This document shows positions 21,456 through 30,956 of a stretch of 33,110 nt of DNA, one piece after another. Below the pieces are notes generated by a model. The model was given only the letters and a program-made list of their open reading frames with translations, was not told the origin of the DNA and ran no database searches. The DNA is from Candidatus Fermentibacterota bacterium (GTDB lineage: Bacteria; Fermentibacterota; Fermentibacteria; Fermentibacterales; JCC-6), in assembly GCA_003644925.1 (NCBI GenBank), contig QNDS01000008.1, positions 1 through 33,110 of the forward strand, written 5' to 3'. The position numbers were made by a program, and so were the translations under genes. Each line of letters starts with the position of its first letter. Position 1 is the first letter of the stretch.

Positions 21456-22613
21456 TTACAGAAGCCTTGAAGCCAGTTCCTCGGCTCTGTCGGTTTTCTC
21501 CCAGGAAAAGAACCCGCCAGCTTCAGGTTCCCTGCCGAAATGCCCGAAGGAGGATGTGCATGAAAAAATTGGCTTCCTGAGCCCAAGATACTCAATAATC
21601 CTGTAGGGGCGAAGGGGGAATATATCCCTTATCGCTTTTTCAATGGAACCGTTATTGCTGGTTTTTCCTGTTCCGAAGGTCTCTACCATAACCGAAACCG
21701 GATCTGGTCTGCCTATTGCGTAGGCAAGCTGAATTTCGCATCTGTCAGCAACACCTGCTTTTACAATGTTCTTTGCAATATGCCGGGCCATATAGGCAGC
21801 CGAACGATCGACTTTCGTCGCGTCCTTACCTGAGAACGCTCCGCCCCCATGCCGGCCTGAACCGCCATACGTATCAACAATGATCTTTCTTCCTGTCAGC
21901 CCTGCGTCTCCGTGAGGTCCGCCTATAGCGAACCGGCCGGATGGATTGAACAGGAGCTTCCCGTTCCATTTCAGAATCGGTTTGCATCTTTGCAGCACGG
22001 GTGTGATAACCTTTTTCAGTATATCATCTTCCATATCACCTCTTTGGGCATCAGGCGCATGATGAACGGATATGAGGATCTCATCAATGGAAACGGGTGT
22101 ATGTCCTTCGTATTCGACGGTCACCTGGCTTTTCGCATCGGGTCTTGCCCATGGGATATCCCCCGCTTTGCGTGATTCCCTTAATTGCTCCAGAAGCCTG
22201 TGCGCCAGCTGAACAGGGTAGGGCATAAGGACTTCCGTTTCTCTGCATGCGAAACCGAACATCAATCCCTGATCCCCTGCACCCTCGTTATCAACCACAC
22301 CATGATCGATATCGGGTGACTGAGAATGTATTCTGATTCTGTATGTATTCTCGCTGAAATGAAAACCCAGATCCGGGATTTCGTAACCTATCGAGCGGAT
22401 AGTATCCCTTGCAACCTTCTCATAATCCACACTGGAGTGGCTCTTCACTTCACCCGCCAGAAGGCAGAAATTGGTAGTTACTAGGGTTTCGCAGGCAACG
22501 TGTGCATTCGGGTCATCTTTGAGATGCGCGTCAAGCACAGCATCCGAGATCTGGTCACAGATCTTATCGGGATGACCATCCGAAACGGATTCACTGGTAA
22601 ACATTGTACCCAT
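21456..22613 (-). CDS. metK: S-adenosylmethionine synthase
   Basis: This 385-residue enzyme makes S-adenosylmethionine from ATP and methionine in the cytosol. The start region FTSESVSDGHPDKICDQISD, the GAGDQGLMFGFA hexapeptide region and the GGGAFSGKD loop are all family signatures, and the length is normal. The ATG at 22613 has a GAGG Shine-Dalgarno 11 bases upstream. The transcript appears to start near 22741, giving a leader of about 128 bases that contains a stable fold (22638-22700). Downstream are the EnvC-like gene and holB on the same strand. Confidence 0.97.
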   Translation of the reverse strand: MGTMFTSESVSDGHPDKICDQISDAVLDAHLKDDPNAHVACETLVTTNFCLLAGEVKSHSSVDYEKVARDTIRSIGYEIPDLGFHFSENTYRIRIHSQSPDIDHGVVDNEGAGDQGLMFGFACRETEVLMPYPVQLAHRLLEQLRESRKAGDIPWARPDAKSQVTVEYEGHTPVSIDEILISVHHAPDAQRGDMEDDILKKVITPVLQRCKPILKWNGKLLFNPSGRFAIGGPHGDAGLTGRKIIVDTYGGSGRHGGGAFSGKDATKVDRSAAYMARHIAKNIVKAGVADRCEIQLAYAIGRPDPVSVMVETFGTGKTSNNGSIEKAIRDIFPLRPYRIIEYLGLRKPIFSCTSSFGHFGREPEAGGFFSWEKTDRAEELASRLL

Positions 22614-22791: not shown

Positions 22792-22868
22792 AGGGGGTCG
22801 TATCTTGAATTTTGGCATTCGTCAATGTCTTAGCAAATCAAATGCCAAAATTCAAGATACGACCCCCT
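22792..22868. repeat. Long inverted repeat, REP/MITE-like (copy 2)
   Basis: The arms 22792-22819 and 22841-22868 are perfect 28-bp reverse complements around a 21-base spacer. The core GTCGTATCTTGAATTTTGG is identical to the arms of the element at 94-188, while spacers and outermost bases differ. It lies between the divergent promoters of metK and the TPR-like gene. No coding capacity is present. Confidence 0.88.
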
Positions 22869-24229: not shown

Positions 24230-25237
24230 TCAAGCTTTTTTACCTGAAAGCTGCTCCCAGATAGCCTTTTCCTCTTCAGATAAGGACAAGGGCAGCGAAA
24301 CCTCCACATGAACCAGCTGATCGCCTTTCGTTCCTCTGTAGGGAACTCCCTTTCCGGGGATTCTCAGAACCGTTCCAGGCTGTGTTCCGGGATGGATCTT
24401 CAGGACGATCTTCCCGTCCAGCGTGCGTATCTTCAATTTCGTTCCAAGAACTGCCTGAGGAGCGGTGACTTTAACCGTACAGTGAATATTTCTCCCATCC
24501 CTCCTGAAAAAATTGTCAGGGTTGATCCTTAGTTTCACCATGACTGTCTTCCGGGAAGGTGTTGCGAGGCGAAGCACCGATCCATCATCCGAACCAGGCG
24601 GTATGTTCAGGTCAACAGTCTCCGAGGAAATGACCTCTCCGGTTCCATGACAACTTGAACAGACATCTCTGAAAGTTTTACCTGCGCCGGAGCAGGAAGG
24701 ACATGGCATGACCATCTGACCCTGCTGCAATCTGCCCGAGCCGCCGCATTGACTGCAGGTTTCCTCGCCCGATCCGCCTGCTCCCATGCATACAGTGCAC
24801 ATTGAGGGCATTTCCAGGTTTGCTCGTACAGTTCCGCCAAGTGCTGCGGTTGTGAATGGGACGGATACAACAACGGTGTGCTTTGAGGTTCTTCTCTGTC
24901 CAAACCCGCCGCCGGTACCGAAACCTCCGCCGCCAAACATGGATCGAAGAATATCCGCCAGACCGCCGCCGCCGAAAGAGCTTCCGGTCTGACCGGCGGC
25001 ATCACTCCATGAGAAGTCACCGCCGCCCTTCCGGATCTGATCGTACTTATTTCTCTTCTCTTCATTACCAAGGATATCGTATGATTCGGAAATTTCCTTG
25101 AAACGTTCCTCGGCTTTCTTATCTCCGGGGTTTGCATCGGGATGATACTTCTTGGCCAGCTTTCTGTAAGCTTTCTTCAGTTCATCCTGTGATACGTTCT
25201 CATCTACCCCCAGGGTCGAATAGAGATCTTTATTCAC
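24230..25237 (-). CDS. dnaJ: Chaperone protein DnaJ
   Basis: This 335-residue Hsp40 delivers clients to DnaK and stimulates its ATPase. The J-domain has HPD at 32-34. A Gly/Phe-rich region (about 78-115) follows, then four CxxCxGxG zinc repeats (CTVCMGAG, CSQCGGSG, CPSCSGAG, CSSCHGTG) and the C-terminal beta domains. It is about 40 residues shorter than E. coli DnaJ. The start codon is GTG, 6 bp after grpE, with a distant GGGGGAG as the only Shine-Dalgarno candidate. It is the third gene of dnaK-grpE-dnaJ. Confidence 0.96.
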   Translation of the reverse strand: MNKDLYSTLGVDENVSQDELKKAYRKLAKKYHPDANPGDKKAEERFKEISESYDILGNEEKRNKYDQIRKGGGDFSWSDAAGQTGSSFGGGGLADILRSMFGGGGFGTGGGFGQRRTSKHTVVVSVPFTTAALGGTVRANLEMPSMCTVCMGAGGSGEETCSQCGGSGRLQQGQMVMPCPSCSGAGKTFRDVCSSCHGTGEVISSETVDLNIPPGSDDGSVLRLATPSRKTVMVKLRINPDNFFRRDGRNIHCTVKVTAPQAVLGTKLKIRTLDGKIVLKIHPGTQPGTVLRIPGKGVPYRGTKGDQLVHVEVSLPLSLSEEEKAIWEQLSGKKA

Positions 25238-25243
25238 TGGTTT

Positions 25244-25906
25244 CTATTCTCCCCCTCCGGTTTCAGGCTGTTCCCCGGTTACAGAAGATGAAAGAGGTTT
25301 ACCTACCCTGACCCTTGCGGGGCGGAGAAGATCCTGTCCGAGAGAGTAACCCCTCTGGAAAATTTCCAGAACTGTATCCTGATCAAGTCCATCCCTGCTT
25401 TCGGCCAGCATGGCTTCATGGATATTCGGGTCGAAGGGATCACCCTCGGCTACCTCCAGCTCTTTGAGGCCCTCCTGTTTCAGTATACTGACCAGCTGTT
25501 CGGATGTTTTCATCAGGCCATCGGTTATCTCCTCTACAGAATGACCTCCTTCCTCTACGAGCTGCTCTGCCCTGTGATAATTATCCAGAACTGCAAGGAG
25601 TTCCTGTATCAGATCCTTCTTGCCCTGCTCGCAGAGCCGTCTGAAATCCCTTGCCTGACGTTTCCTGTAATTGTCGAATTCCGCCTGGAGCCGCAGGAGT
25701 TTCTCCTGAAACTGAAGTCTGACCGAATCGGGTTCAAACCTCTCTGCACGATCCTGATTCTCCGTACCGATCTTTTCAGCCATGTTTTCCGCTTCCGGAA
25801 CTTCCTGAATGCCGATCGGCTCCTCCTGGGATTTGGGGATAGGATCTCTTTTCCTGGTGGAAGTTCCGTTCCTTCTCTTCAGCGTGCTTCTTCTTGGATC
25901 AGCCAT
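25244..25906 (-). CDS. grpE: Nucleotide exchange factor GrpE
   Basis: This 220-residue protein has a charged N-terminal tail (1-70), a long coiled coil containing FDNYRKRQARDF, and the C-terminal beta-wing with PNIHEAML and the VLEIFQRGYSLGQDLLRPARVRVG signature. It releases ADP from DnaK. The ATG at 25906 overlaps the dnaK TGA by one base; a TTG one codon upstream is less likely. It lies between dnaK and dnaJ rather than upstream of dnaK as in most bacteria. Confidence 0.95.
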   Translation of the reverse strand: MADPRRSTLKRRNGTSTRKRDPIPKSQEEPIGIQEVPEAENMAEKIGTENQDRAERFEPDSVRLQFQEKLLRLQAEFDNYRKRQARDFRRLCEQGKKDLIQELLAVLDNYHRAEQLVEEGGHSVEEITDGLMKTSEQLVSILKQEGLKELEVAEGDPFDPNIHEAMLAESRDGLDQDTVLEIFQRGYSLGQDLLRPARVRVGKPLSSSVTGEQPETGGGE

Positions 25907-27825
25907 CAATCATCAACTACTTCATAATCAGCATCGACGGTGTTGGCTTCGTCTCCGCCGGAATCGGCCGCTCCCGCAGCTTCTCCCGTCTGTCCTTCAG
26001 GACCGGCAGCCTGCTGCTGAGCCTGCTGCTGCTTGTAGAAGGCTTCCCCGAACTGTTTCCAGGTTTCCTGAAGACTGTCGAATTTCTGCTTTATCAGATC
26101 GTCATCCTGACCCTCAAGAGCTTTCTTCATATCTGATACTGCCGAATCGAGGCGGGATTTGTCATCGGGAGTTACCTTGTCTCCGTATTCCTTCATCTGC
26201 TTCTCTATTTCAAAAACCATCGCGTCGGCATGGTTACGCCTCTCGATAATCTCCTTCTTCTTTTCGTCTTCCTCGGCATGAGCTTCAGCATCGTGCAGCA
26301 TTTTCTCGATCTCATCCTCGGAAAGTCCGCTGGATGCTTCAATTGTGATCTTCTGTTCTTTACCGGTGGCTTTATCTTTTGCCGCAACGTGGAGAATTCC
26401 ATTGGCGTCTATATCAAATGAAACTTCTATCTGCGGCATTCCTCTTGGAGCTGGCGGAATTCCGTCAAGAACGAATCTTCCAACAGTTCTGTTGTCAGCT
26501 GCCATTTTCCGCTCACCCTGAAGTACGATGATCTCGACCTGAGGCTGATTGTCAGCGGCGGTACTGAACACCTGGCTTTTCTTGGTGGGAATAGTTGTGT
26601 TCTTCTCGATGATGTGTGTCGCTACTCCGCCGAGGGTTTCGATGCCAAGCGTAAGCGGAGTTACATCGAGGAGCAGAACGTCTTTGACATCGCCTGAAAG
26701 CACTCCAGCCTGGATGGCCGCCCCTACTGCAACCACTTCGTCAGGGTTAACACCCTTGTGAGGCTCCTTGCCGAATATCTCGGTAACTTTCTTCTGAACA
26801 AGCGGCATACGTGTCTGTCCGCCCACCAGAATGACATCGTCGATGCCGGATGCGCTCAGACCCGCATCTTTCAATGCTGTCCTGCATGGTTCTACGGTCA
26901 TGTCCACGAGGTCATCTACCAGCTGCTCGAGTTTTGATCTTGAAAGGGTCATATCCAGGTGCTTTGCTCCTGCAGAATCGGCTGTGACGAACGGCAGGTT
27001 TATGTTAGTGCTCTGCGTTGTTGAAAGCTCGCACTTGGCGATCTCAGCAGCTTCCTTGAGCCTCTGAAGAGCCATCATGTCAGCGGACAGGTCGATACCC
27101 TGCTGCTTCTTGAATTCGGCAACCATCCAGTTGATTATGGCGTGATCGAAATCGTCTCCGCCGAGGTGAGTGTTGCCGTTTGTTGACTTAACCTCAAAGA
27201 CACCATCGCCTATTTCGAGTATTGAAATATCGAAGGTTCCGCCGCCGAGGTCGTATACAGCTATCGTTCTGTTGGAGGCTTCCTTGTCCAGTCCATAGGC
27301 AAGGGCGGCAGCCGTTGGTTCGTTTACTATCCTCTCCACTATCAGGCCGGCTATCTTCCCTGCATCCTTGGTGGCCTGCCTCTGGCTGTCGTTGAAATAC
27401 GCCGGAACGGTCACAACCGCTTTTTCAACCTTCTCTCCAAGGTAATCCTCGGCAGTCTGCCTCATCTTCTGGAGGATCATTGCCGATATCTCAGGAGGAG
27501 AGTACTTCTTACCAAGTATTTCAACCCAGGCATCGCCGTTCTTTCCCTCAACAACTTTGTAGGGAACCCTCTTTATCTCTTTTGTCATCTCACTGTATTT
27601 ACATCCCATGAACCTCTTTATGGAGAATATGGTATTCTCGGGGTTCGCCACTGCCTGCCTGTGGGCTACAACACCCACAAGCCTCTCTCCTTTGTCATTG
27701 AAGGCAACTACCGAAGGCGTTGTTCTATTACCTTCAGCGTTTGGTATTACGGTAGGTTCACCACCTTCCATAACTGCCACGCACGAATTTGTGGTTCCCA
27801 GATCAATTCCAATTATCTTTCCCAT
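25906..27825 (-). CDS. dnaK: Chaperone protein DnaK (Hsp70)
   Basis: This 639-residue ATP-driven chaperone has an N-terminal ATPase domain opening [17 protein letters not shown] and containing [12 protein letters not shown] and [10 protein letters not shown]. The linker is [14 protein letters not shown]. The substrate-binding domain and lid are followed by a Gln/Gly/Ala-rich tail ending in acidic residues. Length is standard. The ATG has an AGAGGA Shine-Dalgarno. Upstream on the same strand lies a consensus sigma-54 element (27931-27946). No CIRCE inverted repeat is visible in the 300-bp upstream region. Confidence 0.97.
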
Positions 27826-28127
27826 TAGTTATCCTCTCGTGTTTTTTCCAAATTCTTCTGATACTTTATAAACCCGCTTTGAACCTTCCACAGTTCCTTC
27901 TGCTCGGGCATTGATTCCTAGTAGCTATCGAGCAATCATCGTGCCAAAAATACCTCTACCTGCAGAATATTGCCCCGCAGTACCTTACAAACTACCCAAA
28001 GCGGTCCTGTTTCGTCGGGCGTACAGCGGGCGTGCTATTGTGGCACATTCCATGTCCTCTCTTATGCTTTATAGTATATGGTTGCATGAAGTGACACGAG
28101 GATGATTCCCTGTACGGAAAGGAAGAT
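27826..28127. other. Divergent control region between dnaK and uvrA
   Basis: This 302-bp stretch without a gene separates two divergently transcribed genes. It contains the sigma-54-like element facing dnaK, two direct copies of CGGGCGT exactly 11 bp apart (28016-28022 and 28027-28033), and CTGT-N12-ACAG (28007-28026). An A/T-rich TATAGTATAT (28070-28079) could be the -10 region for uvrA, with no good -35 box. No small RNA or convincing small ORF was seen. Confidence 0.6.
27931..27946 (-). promoter_or_regulatory. Sigma-54-type promoter upstream of dnaK
   Basis: On the minus strand the sequence TGGCACGATGATTGCT matches the sigma-54 consensus TGGCACG-N4-TTGCW at every fixed position, with the -24 GG and -12 GC ten bases apart. 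Transcription would start about 95 bp upstream of the dnaK ATG. Such promoters need an enhancer-binding activator, which is not encoded in this window. Confidence 0.65.
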
Positions 28128-30956
28128 GTGGACAGAATAATCGTACGGGGTGCCGCGGAGCATAACCTGAAGAACATCACTGTTGAGTTTCCCAGAAATA
28201 AGCTGGTTGTTCTTACAGGGGTCTCCGGCTCGGGGAAAAGTTCCTTTGCATTCGATACTCTCTACGCGGAGGGTCAGCGAAGGTACGTTGAGTCGCTTTC
28301 AGCATACGCGAGACAGTTCCTCGGTCAGCTTGAAAAACCCCTTTACGAAAGCATCGAAGGGCTTTCTCCGGCGATTTCCATTGAACAGAAAACGGTAAGC
28401 CACAATCCCAGATCTACGGTAGGCACCGTTACGGAAATATCAGATTACATGAGAGTTCTCTTCGCAAGGGTGGGTATTCCCCATTGCCCCGAGTGCGGCA
28501 GGAAAGTATCGGGCCAGTCACCGCAGCAGATGGTTGACCGGATTCTGGAATTCTCCGAAGGGACCAGACTGCTGATAACCGCTCCGCTCCTGCGGAACAG
28601 AAAGGGAGCCCACGCGGACCTCTTCCCGGCATTGAGGAGAAGAGGCTATGTAAGGGTTCTTATCGATGGAGAAAGCAGGAGCCTCGAAGAAAACATCGAA
28701 CTGAACAGCAGGAAAAAGCACAGTATTCATCTTGTGGTCGACCGGGTAGTGTCCAGCAGGAGTATCGCCAGCAGGCTCATGGATTCCGTTGAAACAACCT
28801 TGAGGGAAGGTGATGGCATACTTTCTGTCATAAATGCTGATTCGGGAGAAGAAACCCTGATGAGCGAACACAGTGCCTGCGCATGGTGCGGTATCAGTAT
28901 GCCTGACCTCACTCCCCAGCTTTTCAGTTTCAACAACCCGCTGGGAATGTGCCAGGAATGCTCCGGGCTTGGGTACGAACTCAAGGTTGACCCTCTGCTC
29001 GTAGTTCCAAGAAAAGCGCTGTCCATCAAAGATGGAGCCGTTGGCCCCTGGGGGATGCCGTCGGGTCATGGGAAGAACCTGGCACGGGCACTTGCCAGGG
29101 AGCTTGATTTCAGCCTCGGAGCTCCATGGCAGAGCCTGTCTTCGAACGTACAGGATGAGATCCTCTACGGCTGCGGCGGCAGAAAGATCAGTATAACATG
29201 GTCCTCCAGTAACAGTTCCGGGACATGGGAGACGAACTGGGAAGGCGTTATACCCCGGCTTGAGAGGCTTTATCGCGTAACGGCAAGCCAGGCGGCAAGG
29301 AAATTCTACGAGAAGTTCTTCAACAAATCCGACTGCGAAGGGTGCTCCGGAACAAGGCTTAACAGGGAAGCCAGGGCGGTAACTGTAGAGCGCAGAGGTA
29401 TTCATGAATTGAATTCCATGACCGTCAAAGGCCTTCACGAATTCTTCTCCAGTCTCGAACTCGACCCATGGAGGATGGAGATCGCGACGGAGCTCCTGAG
29501 GGAGATCAGAAACAGACTTGATTTCCTTGTTAATGTCGGGCTTCACTACCTCACACTGGACAGGGCGTCACCAACCCTTTCCGGCGGAGAAGCTCAGAGG
29601 ATAAGGCTTGCCAGTCAGATAGGAAGCGGACTTACAGGGGTTCTATACGTGCTTGATGAACCCACAATCGGCCTTCATCAGAGAGATAACGTACGGCTCC
29701 TCTCTACTCTTGCAGAACTCCGGGATCTCGGCAACACCGTTCTTGTTGTGGAACACGATCATGATACTATTCTTGCTGCTGATCATGTGGTGGATTTCGG
29801 CCCGGGCGCAGGCGTTCACGGAGGAAATGTTGTCGCGACGGGAACCCCCGCCGAGATAATGGCATCGAAGGATTCCCTTACCGGCGACTACCTCTCGGGA
29901 AGGAAATTCATACACCGAACCGTACCTGTTTTTGGGGAGGACAGCGATCTTCTTACACTGAAGAAGGCAAGCCTTCATAACCTGAAGGATATCGATCTCA
30001 GTATTCCTCTTGGAAAATTCATCTGCGTTACGGGTGTGTCGGGGTCGGGCAAGAGCTCTCTTATCAGCCAGACCCTTTACCCGGCACTCGCGGCGGCTAC
30101 CGGGAATTCCACGAAACTCCGCCCCGGCCCTTACGGCTCCCTCGAGGGGGTGAACAGGGTGGACAAGGTCATCAACATCTCCCAGGATCCCATTGGAAGA
30201 ACACCGAGGTCCAACCCCGCAACCTATACGAAAGTTTTTGATCTCATAAGAAAGCTGTTCGCTCAGACATCCCAGGCAAAGATCCGCGGGTACAAACCCG
30301 GAAGATTCAGTTTCAACGTCAAGGGCGGCAGATGCGAGGAGTGCAGAGGCGCAGGTGTTATAAAGATAGAGATGCATTTCCTTTCCGATGTCTTCATAGA
30401 ATGCAGAACATGCCGCGGGCGCAGGTTCAACCGCGAAACACTGAAAGTCACATACGGAGGGCTGAATATCGCGGAAGTGCTCGATCTCACCGTCAGCGAA
30501 GCACTTCTTCAATTCGAGAGAATTCCCGCCATTTACCGCATTCTCAAAGTACTGGACGATGTGGGTCTCGGATACGTTCAGCTAGGGCAGCAGGCGACAA
30601 CGCTCTCGGGCGGTGAAGCGCAGAGGATTAAACTTGCAAAGGAGCTGTCGCGCCCCGGGTCAACCCATACAGTTTACATTCTGGACGAACCGACCACAGG
30701 CCTTCATTTTCATGATGTGAAGAAACTCCTGATAGTCCTTGGAAGGCTGGTCAAAGCGGGGAACACCGTAATAGTCATCGAACACAACCTCGATGTCATC
30801 AAGAACGCAAGCTGGATAGTCGATCTTGGTCCGGATGGAGGCGACGCCGGGGGCTGGATAATTGCAACCGGTACACCCGATCAGCTGGCCGAAAACGGAG
30901 ATTCGTATACGGGCAGTTTTCTCAAGGCTGTTCTGGAGAAGGAGGAGCGGGAGTAA
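28128..30956 (+). CDS. uvrA: Excinuclease ABC subunit A
   Basis: This 942-residue DNA damage sensor of nucleotide excision repair has two ABC ATPase modules. Walker A motifs are GVSGSGKSS at 31-39 and again in the second half (VTGVSGSGKSSLIS). The two ABC signatures are TLSGGEAQRIRLA and TLSGGEAQRIKLA. Zinc modules include CPECG, CAWCG with CQECSGLG, CEGCSGTR, and CEECRGAG with CRTCRGRRF. The start is GTG, supported by a GGAAAGGAAG Shine-Dalgarno. The last 35 bp overlap the end of the convergent gene. Confidence 0.97.
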   Translation: MDRIIVRGAAEHNLKNITVEFPRNKLVVLTGVSGSGKSSFAFDTLYAEGQRRYVESLSAYARQFLGQLEKPLYESIEGLSPAISIEQKTVSHNPRSTVGTVTEISDYMRVLFARVGIPHCPECGRKVSGQSPQQMVDRILEFSEGTRLLITAPLLRNRKGAHADLFPALRRRGYVRVLIDGESRSLEENIELNSRKKHSIHLVVDRVVSSRSIASRLMDSVETTLREGDGILSVINADSGEETLMSEHSACAWCGISMPDLTPQLFSFNNPLGMCQECSGLGYELKVDPLLVVPRKALSIKDGAVGPWGMPSGHGKNLARALARELDFSLGAPWQSLSSNVQDEILYGCGGRKISITWSSSNSSGTWETNWEGVIPRLERLYRVTASQAARKFYEKFFNKSDCEGCSGTRLNREARAVTVERRGIHELNSMTVKGLHEFFSSLELDPWRMEIATELLREIRNRLDFLVNVGLHYLTLDRASPTLSGGEAQRIRLASQIGSGLTGVLYVLDEPTIGLHQRDNVRLLSTLAELRDLGNTVLVVEHDHDTILAADHVVDFGPGAGVHGGNVVATGTPAEIMASKDSLTGDYLSGRKFIHRTVPVFGEDSDLLTLKKASLHNLKDIDLSIPLGKFICVTGVSGSGKSSLISQTLYPALAAATGNSTKLRPGPYGSLEGVNRVDKVINISQDPIGRTPRSNPATYTKVFDLIRKLFAQTSQAKIRGYKPGRFSFNVKGGRCEECRGAGVIKIEMHFLSDVFIECRTCRGRRFNRETLKVTYGGLNIAEVLDLTVSEALLQFERIPAIYRILKVLDDVGLGYVQLGQQATTLSGGEAQRIKLAKELSRPGSTHTVYILDEPTTGLHFHDVKKLLIVLGRLVKAGNTVIVIEHNLDVIKNASWIVDLGPDGGDAGGWIIATGTPDQLAENGDSYTGSFLKAVLEKEERE

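Follow-up and report, generated by a model that had tools for sequence, protein, structure and literature searches.

A Sigma-54-Type Promoter with a Common Upstream Dyad at the Chaperone Genes of Fermentibacterota

Results

The dnaK–uvrA Intergenic Region

The window analyzed here, 33,110 nucleotides of contig QNDS01000008.1 (GenBank assembly GCA_003644925.1), belongs to a fragmented MAG of 3.6 Mb that is 86.6% complete with 7% contamination. The closest named relatives of its DnaK are found in Candidatus Aegiribacteria MAGs (94–96% identity), followed by Candidatus Fermentibacteraceae, and from these relatives we take the phylum name to be Fermentibacterota, a group that to our knowledge is little studied and apparently uncultured. 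Aegiribacteria have been placed in the FCB group (PMC4846661). The features of the locus are as follows.

24230–25237, minus strand: dnaJ-like gene, the last of the chaperone operon (PF00226 and PF01556)
25244–25909, minus strand: grpE, overlapping the dnaK stop (PF01025, 123.5 bits)
25906–27825, minus strand: dnaK (Hsp70), 639 aa (PF00012, 902 bits)
27920, minus strand: inferred dnaK transcription start, 12 nt downstream of the −12 C by standard sigma-54 geometry
27931–27946, minus strand: sigma-54 −24/−12 element TGGCACGATGATTGCT of dnaK-grpE-dnaJ, an exact match that is kept in relatives
28032–28046, minus strand: activator dyad (putative enhancer) GTGCCACAATAGCAC, centered near −119 from the inferred start
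28128–30956, plus strand: uvrA (UvrA domains), the divergent neighbor that bounds the intergenic region, outside the regulon

A preliminary description of this DNA had proposed a perfect sigma-54 site in front of dnaK, and match, spacing and distance are all borne out. The element lies inside the dnaK/uvrA divergent intergenic region with its 3′ end 105 bp from the dnaK ATG (27825); it fits YTGGCACG-N4-TTGCW with no mismatches, the GG and GC dinucleotides being 10 nt apart. Given standard sigma-54 promoter geometry, the dnaK 5′ leader would be about 95 nt long. A conserved TATAGTATAT-like block at 28070–28079 on the plus strand is probably the −10 element of the divergent uvrA promoter.

The scan for further copies proposed earlier, run as a pattern search for exact TGGCACG-N4-TTGCW over the 3.6-Mb assembly, returned TGGCACGATGATTGCT before dnaK as the sole occurrence. 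The argument that a chance match is improbable holds for 33 kb but not genome-wide, where we estimate about 0.9 matches by chance for 11.5 fixed bases on both strands of 3.6 Mb. A lone match to the motif is weak evidence at that scale; conservation and position carry the weight. A second site that is exact for the pattern TGGCAY-N5-TTGCT (TGGCATTTGATTTGCT) lies at 22832–22847 on the minus strand, 219 bp upstream of metK (21456–22613, minus strand). The same 16-mer occurs at the end of contig C15, and since the site is not among the exact matches of the relatives, it is probably a chance or strain-specific occurrence.

Sigma Factors and Other Heat-Shock Controls

The preliminary description had made its reading depend on the presence of rpoN. 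The gene is present in the window genome, where NCBIfam TIGR02395 scores 320 bits against a cut-off of 277, and is cut at its 5′ end by a contig edge. The sigma-54 activator domain is found in five proteins of the window genome at E < 1e-20, four of which carry the GAFTGA-type loop expected of enhancer-binding proteins; the fifth, on contig C3, is without it.

Bacterial heat-shock control is usually taught as a matter of sigma-32 or of CIRCE/HrcA. These systems have the same target genes as those considered here, and their elements, which the preliminary description had also failed to see, prove to be absent or below cut-off. In the window assembly, the one genome searched for hrcA (86.6% complete), PF01628 is absent, and the loss of HrcA is accordingly a statement about this genome. 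Best matches to the CIRCE consensus, TTAGCACTC-N9-GAGTGCTAA, have 7–9 mismatches in 18 positions upstream of dnaK in the named relatives, and 6–9 mismatches at groES in Fermentibacterota. Two long sigma-70-type proteins were tested as RpoH and rejected by the curated cut-off, the better TIGR02392 score being 158 bits against 323.

Conservation of the dnaK Site

Upstream regions of dnaK were compared in 29 cases, the window genome and 28 relatives. TGGCA-N7-TGCT is present in 27, at 79–190 bp before the ATG, so that the conservation in relatives on which the earlier reading was also staked is observed. The DNA flanking the −24/−12 sites diverges among relatives, whereas the site is kept across genera: when the 27 regions are anchored on the site, mean information over its 16 bp is 1.57 bits per base, as against 0.54 bits in the 40 bp upstream and 0.32 bits in the 40 bp downstream. 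In the two exceptions, L039 (G020) and L053 (G037), an apparently hsp20-like coding region directly precedes dnaK. The promoter stands about 490–550 bp upstream of dnaK in G037, G038, G039 and G041, and the gene between promoter and dnaK is confirmed as HSP20 in G038 and G039. At the dnaK of G020 no dyad-plus-promoter composite was found in the stretch examined.

A second, divergent DnaK paralogue of 623 aa (G000:C102:3873–5600, about 53% identity) occurs in the window genome and in nearly all genomes of the order.

Sites before groES and hsp20

The search for groES recovered the gene from 22 Fermentibacterota genomes of the set, and a sigma-54-type site is present in every one, 88–129 bp before the Cpn10 domain match. 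In three (G020, G037 and G040) the −12 element reads TATGCT or CATGCT. The window genome's own groES is missing from the assembly. Some hsp20 genes are also preceded by a −24/−12 site. Exact TGGCAY-N5-TTGCT occurs 89 times in 28 Fermentibacterota genomes, 33 of these within 250 bp before dnaK or groES; G001 (97% complete, 3 Mb) has just two, one before each gene. An apparent sigma-54 match at groES of the outgroup genome G044 was rejected as a CIRCE element that accidentally fits the pattern.

A Common Upstream Dyad

Within the phylum, dnaK, groES and hsp20 are preceded at near-constant spacing by dyads of the class GTGYCA-N3-TRRCNC. At dnaK, the distance from the first base of the dyad to the T of TGG is 99–101 bp in all 27 regions that have the site, while the distance from promoter to ATG varies over the range given above. 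At groES, on contigs long enough to show it, the interval is 110, 113 or 121–123 bp, with the dyad centered about −142 from the inferred start. Both positions would suit an upstream activator sequence, which typically lies 80–150 bp before the start, and the steps in spacing, close to one and two helical turns, would fit an activator that binds the dyad and loops the DNA. The dyad's second half is more variable than the promoter. Some groES dyads of genus g5 are perfectly palindromic in both the outer and the inner half-sites, for example GTGCCAAACTGGCAC.

Dyad and promoter were combined into one composite pattern, and 60 genomes were searched with it and with the reversed pattern as control. 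Of these, 42 belong to the Fermentibacterota order (the window genome together with genomes of the same genus, family and order) and 18 are outgroups. Seventy-six composites were found in 40 of the 42 Fermentibacterota genomes, against a single match of the reversed control, an excess of about 70-fold; the outgroup genomes gave two matches and one control match. Coordinates and a reading of the flanking genes place 69 of the 76 before dnaK, hsp20-dnaK, groESL or hsp20; the hsp20-like gene behind one of the composites (G036:C206) is cut by the contig end. The other seven, most of them inside long reading frames, were treated as chance matches:

G006:C62 and G003:C200: inside a long, apparently cysS-like reading frame
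G009:C224, G022:C74, G031:C261, G025:C163:3238 and G035:C8: other off-target composites

Candidate Activators

EBP-A of the window genome (G000:C12:25008–26357, 449 aa) is an NtrC-type protein with an AAA+ domain (PF00158) and a Fis-type HTH domain (PF02954). Its Response_reg match is weak (33.9 bits, Pfam). The receiver aligns with those of its paralogues, and in nine aligned orthologues Ser or Ala replaces the phosphoacceptor Asp that is kept in EBP-B, EBP-C and EBP-D. All 30 orthologues read have the GA[FY]TGA loop, and their recognition helix, GRRTLQR, is invariant. The N-terminal region of EBP-A is present as a single copy in 38 of the 42 Fermentibacterota genomes and in none of the 18 outgroups; three of the four genomes that miss it are 61–79% complete, and the fourth (G038) is 92% complete. 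EBP-A is followed by two Band_7 (HflK/HflC-like) proteins in the window genome and in most neighborhoods examined. Ten genomes outside the genus (G020, G021, G022, G024, G027, G029, G030, G031, G036 and G039) have it within about 1–12 kb of a dnaK or hsp20 promoter.

The gene order that is conserved in the neighborhoods L262 to L267 is M23 peptidase, glycosyltransferase, carbamoyltransferase, EBP-A, two HflK/HflC-like proteins and a sugar-nucleotide epimerase-like protein. EBP-C, a second response-regulator activator, is a few genes away from EBP-A in most of them.

Both promoters are kept in G004 (98% complete), whose only enhancer-binding proteins are EBP-A and EBP-B; this narrows the choice to these two if the assembly is complete. 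EBP-C, absent in G004, and EBP-D, found in neither G004 nor the window genome, were judged less likely activators, as were the C3 protein, which is without GAFTGA, and the C399 protein, a possible contaminant. The last of these (G000:C399; L136) is an NtrC-type activator with the loop GVFTGA, has no similar counterpart among the activators of the relatives examined, and may be contamination in the window MAG. EBP-A is favored over EBP-B because its helix is invariant and because it is linked to chaperone promoters. On this comparative evidence the orphan EBP-A is the most likely activator of the dyad, and probably the correct one.

dnaK and groES in Other Lineages

A GGCA[CTA]-N5-TTGC site precedes dnaK in 10 of 12 Gemmatimonadota (named outgroups), in 8 of 11 KSB1/Calditrichota/Zixibacteria-like or unnamed records, and in none of 37 Nitrospira; the reversed control gave no match in this outgroup survey. 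Many of the outgroup records with the site also have a related dyad, CTGCC..GGCAG, upstream, though in several Gemmatimonadota it is only 23 bp upstream and its role may differ. Eight Gemmatimonadota records (L073, L077, L083, L084, L097, L101, L119 and L132) combine GGCAY-N5-TTGC at dnaK with a CTGCC..GGCAG dyad 23–66 bp upstream, and in two of these eight genomes groES has CIRCE. We are aware of no report of such mixed control in Gemmatimonadota, sigma-54 at dnaK and CIRCE at groES. A CIRCE element with 1–2 mismatches is found at groES in seven Gemmatimonadota/KSB1-like-type relatives.

A further record, a MAG that bears the name Candidatus Fermentibacteria (Zod_Metabat.355; L103, L314), has a DnaK of only 67% identity. 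It carries a sigma-54-type site and CTGCCAAAGTGGCAG before dnaK and CIRCE at groES, and is either a mislabeled record or an intermediate state.

Discussion

The comparisons extend the site first described at dnaK by an enhancer dyad, by matching promoters at groESL and hsp20, and by a candidate activator. The dnaK promoter recognized in the preliminary description is almost certainly real. That it works as a sigma-54 promoter within a phylum-wide chaperone regulon we would put at a probability of about 0.85.

A mechanism may be envisaged in which sigma-54 RNA polymerase would sit at the −24/−12 element as a closed complex, while an AAA+ enhancer-binding protein would bind GTGYCA-N3-TRRCNC about 100 bp (dnaK) or 110–123 bp (groES) upstream. 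Under protein-folding stress the bound activator would loop to the polymerase and open the promoter. The same unit of promoter and dyad would also drive groESL, as well as hsp20 or hsp20-dnaK in certain lineages. Because its receiver has lost the phosphoacceptor aspartate, EBP-A is probably controlled by protein–protein contact, in the manner of PspF, rather than by a kinase. PspF is a sigma-54 activator that is not controlled by phosphorylation and has no receiver domain at all, whereas EBP-A keeps a degenerate one. Possible inputs to EBP-A are titration by chaperones or the neighboring HflKC-FtsH membrane system.

It is conceivable, if unlikely, that promoter and dyad are real and that another enhancer-binding protein is the activator. 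EBP-B would be the first choice, and the chaperones would then answer a kinase signal. It is a two-component response regulator whose receiver is intact, occurs in each of the six genomes examined, among them G004 with its two activators, and in the window genome is directly preceded by a kinase-like gene (a neighboring histidine kinase). Against this, EBP-B and dnaK lie on different contigs in G021 and G039, and the EBP-B helix is changed in G039 (SRQTLSSK versus SYRTLLSR) where the dyad is unchanged, while the helix of EBP-A is invariant.

The trigger, too, may be something other than heat, with sigma-54 control real and the chaperones forming part of a growth-phase response or of a response to nitrogen, envelope or anaerobic stress. 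Sigma-54 is better known for nitrogen use and motility, and one groESL copy of Bradyrhizobium is under NifA/sigma-54. The location of EBP-A beside hflK-hflC suggests membrane stress. The regulon that was found is made up almost entirely of general chaperones, however, and no other heat-shock control was detected, so that we give a non-heat signal perhaps one chance in several.

Two further readings fare much worse. The dyad lies 82–96 bp before uvrA, near the conserved TATAGTATA-like −10 of that gene, and might thus be a LexA/SOS operator of uvrA, with the −24/−12 site free of an enhancer or separately regulated; this reading was rejected and is mostly refuted, since dyads of the same class recur, with near-constant spacing, before groES, hsp20 and hsp20-dnaK, and it is now very improbable. 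Least probable of all is a chance match or decoy, with dnaK transcription driven by a sigma-70 promoter and some other role for the conserved bases: by our estimate each genome should hold about one match by chance, and accidental ones do exist, as in the CIRCE-overlapping match at G044 groES, but no sigma-70-like promoter was found within 27800–28160, and conservation far above the flanks, recurrence of the arrangement at groES and hsp20, and the excess of composites over control all mark TGGCACGATGATTGCT as more than chance.

The preferred reading, a sigma-54 promoter served by a common enhancer, has partial parallels elsewhere. In Myxococcus xanthus, HsfA, like EBP-A an NtrC-like protein tied to activation of a heat-shock gene, activates lonD; it is described as phosphorylated by the hybrid kinase HsfB and as controlling secondary metabolism in addition to lonD (as cited in PMC9109919). 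EBP-A differs in being without the phosphoacceptor and in being tied to core chaperones. In Chlamydia, a sigma-54 promoter likewise contributes to the dnaK operon, hrcA-grpE-dnaK being served by tandem sigma-66/sigma-54 promoters (PMC8762339). That operon is subject to HrcA/CIRCE and to the primary sigma factor as well, whereas neither HrcA nor CIRCE was found in the window genome.

Sigma-54-type promoters have been predicted, and found enriched, before groEL, groES, grpE, dnaJ, dnaK and ibpA in Bacteroidota and Planctomycetota (PMC12316311, 2025). That prediction was made with scoring matrices at class level; the text makes no mention of Fermentibacter, and the passages considered here name no common enhancer or activator, in contrast to the common dyad and candidate activator of Fermentibacterota. 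The study calls groES/grpE of B. thetaiotaomicron sigma-54-dependent, citing a reference (number 80) that is a Blattabacterium nitrogen-recycling paper, and no experiment could be traced through it. The earlier remark that sigma-54 is unusual at a main Hsp70 operon thus stands in relation to CIRCE/HrcA or sigma-32, but must be tempered by the similar sites in Gemmatimonadota and KSB1/Calditrichota-like lineages and by those predicted in Bacteroidota and Planctomycetota. The kind of system is known; the arrangement of shared enhancer, chaperone regulon and activator candidate is new. A search of the open-access literature, with subscription journals largely outside its reach, found nothing on heat-shock control in Fermentibacterota.

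The simplest reading of the distribution is that sigma-54 control of dnaK would predate the phylum, with groES and hsp20 having joined it upon loss of CIRCE/HrcA. In its fullest form the proposal is tentative, and we hold it with less than even confidence: the whole phylum may have replaced HrcA/CIRCE with a dedicated sigma-54 heat-shock system, in which a single orphan activator, its receiver dead and its activity tied either to HflKC-FtsH or to titration by chaperones, would bind one dyad and open dnaK, groESL and hsp20. This system would have its origin in an earlier sigma-54 control of dnaK that the phylum has in common with Gemmatimonadota and KSB1-like lineages; in those lineages groES remains under CIRCE.

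The core chaperones of Fermentibacterota thus seem to be governed by a sigma-54 switch that depends on an activator, consumes ATP, is phylum-wide and acts through a common enhancer, and the analysis provides a defined DNA target together with one strong activator candidate. That Gemmatimonadota and KSB1-like lineages have dnaK promoters of the same type suggests an old form of control that is widespread in the FCB group, and comparison with these lineages suggests that one branch lost the control of groES by CIRCE.
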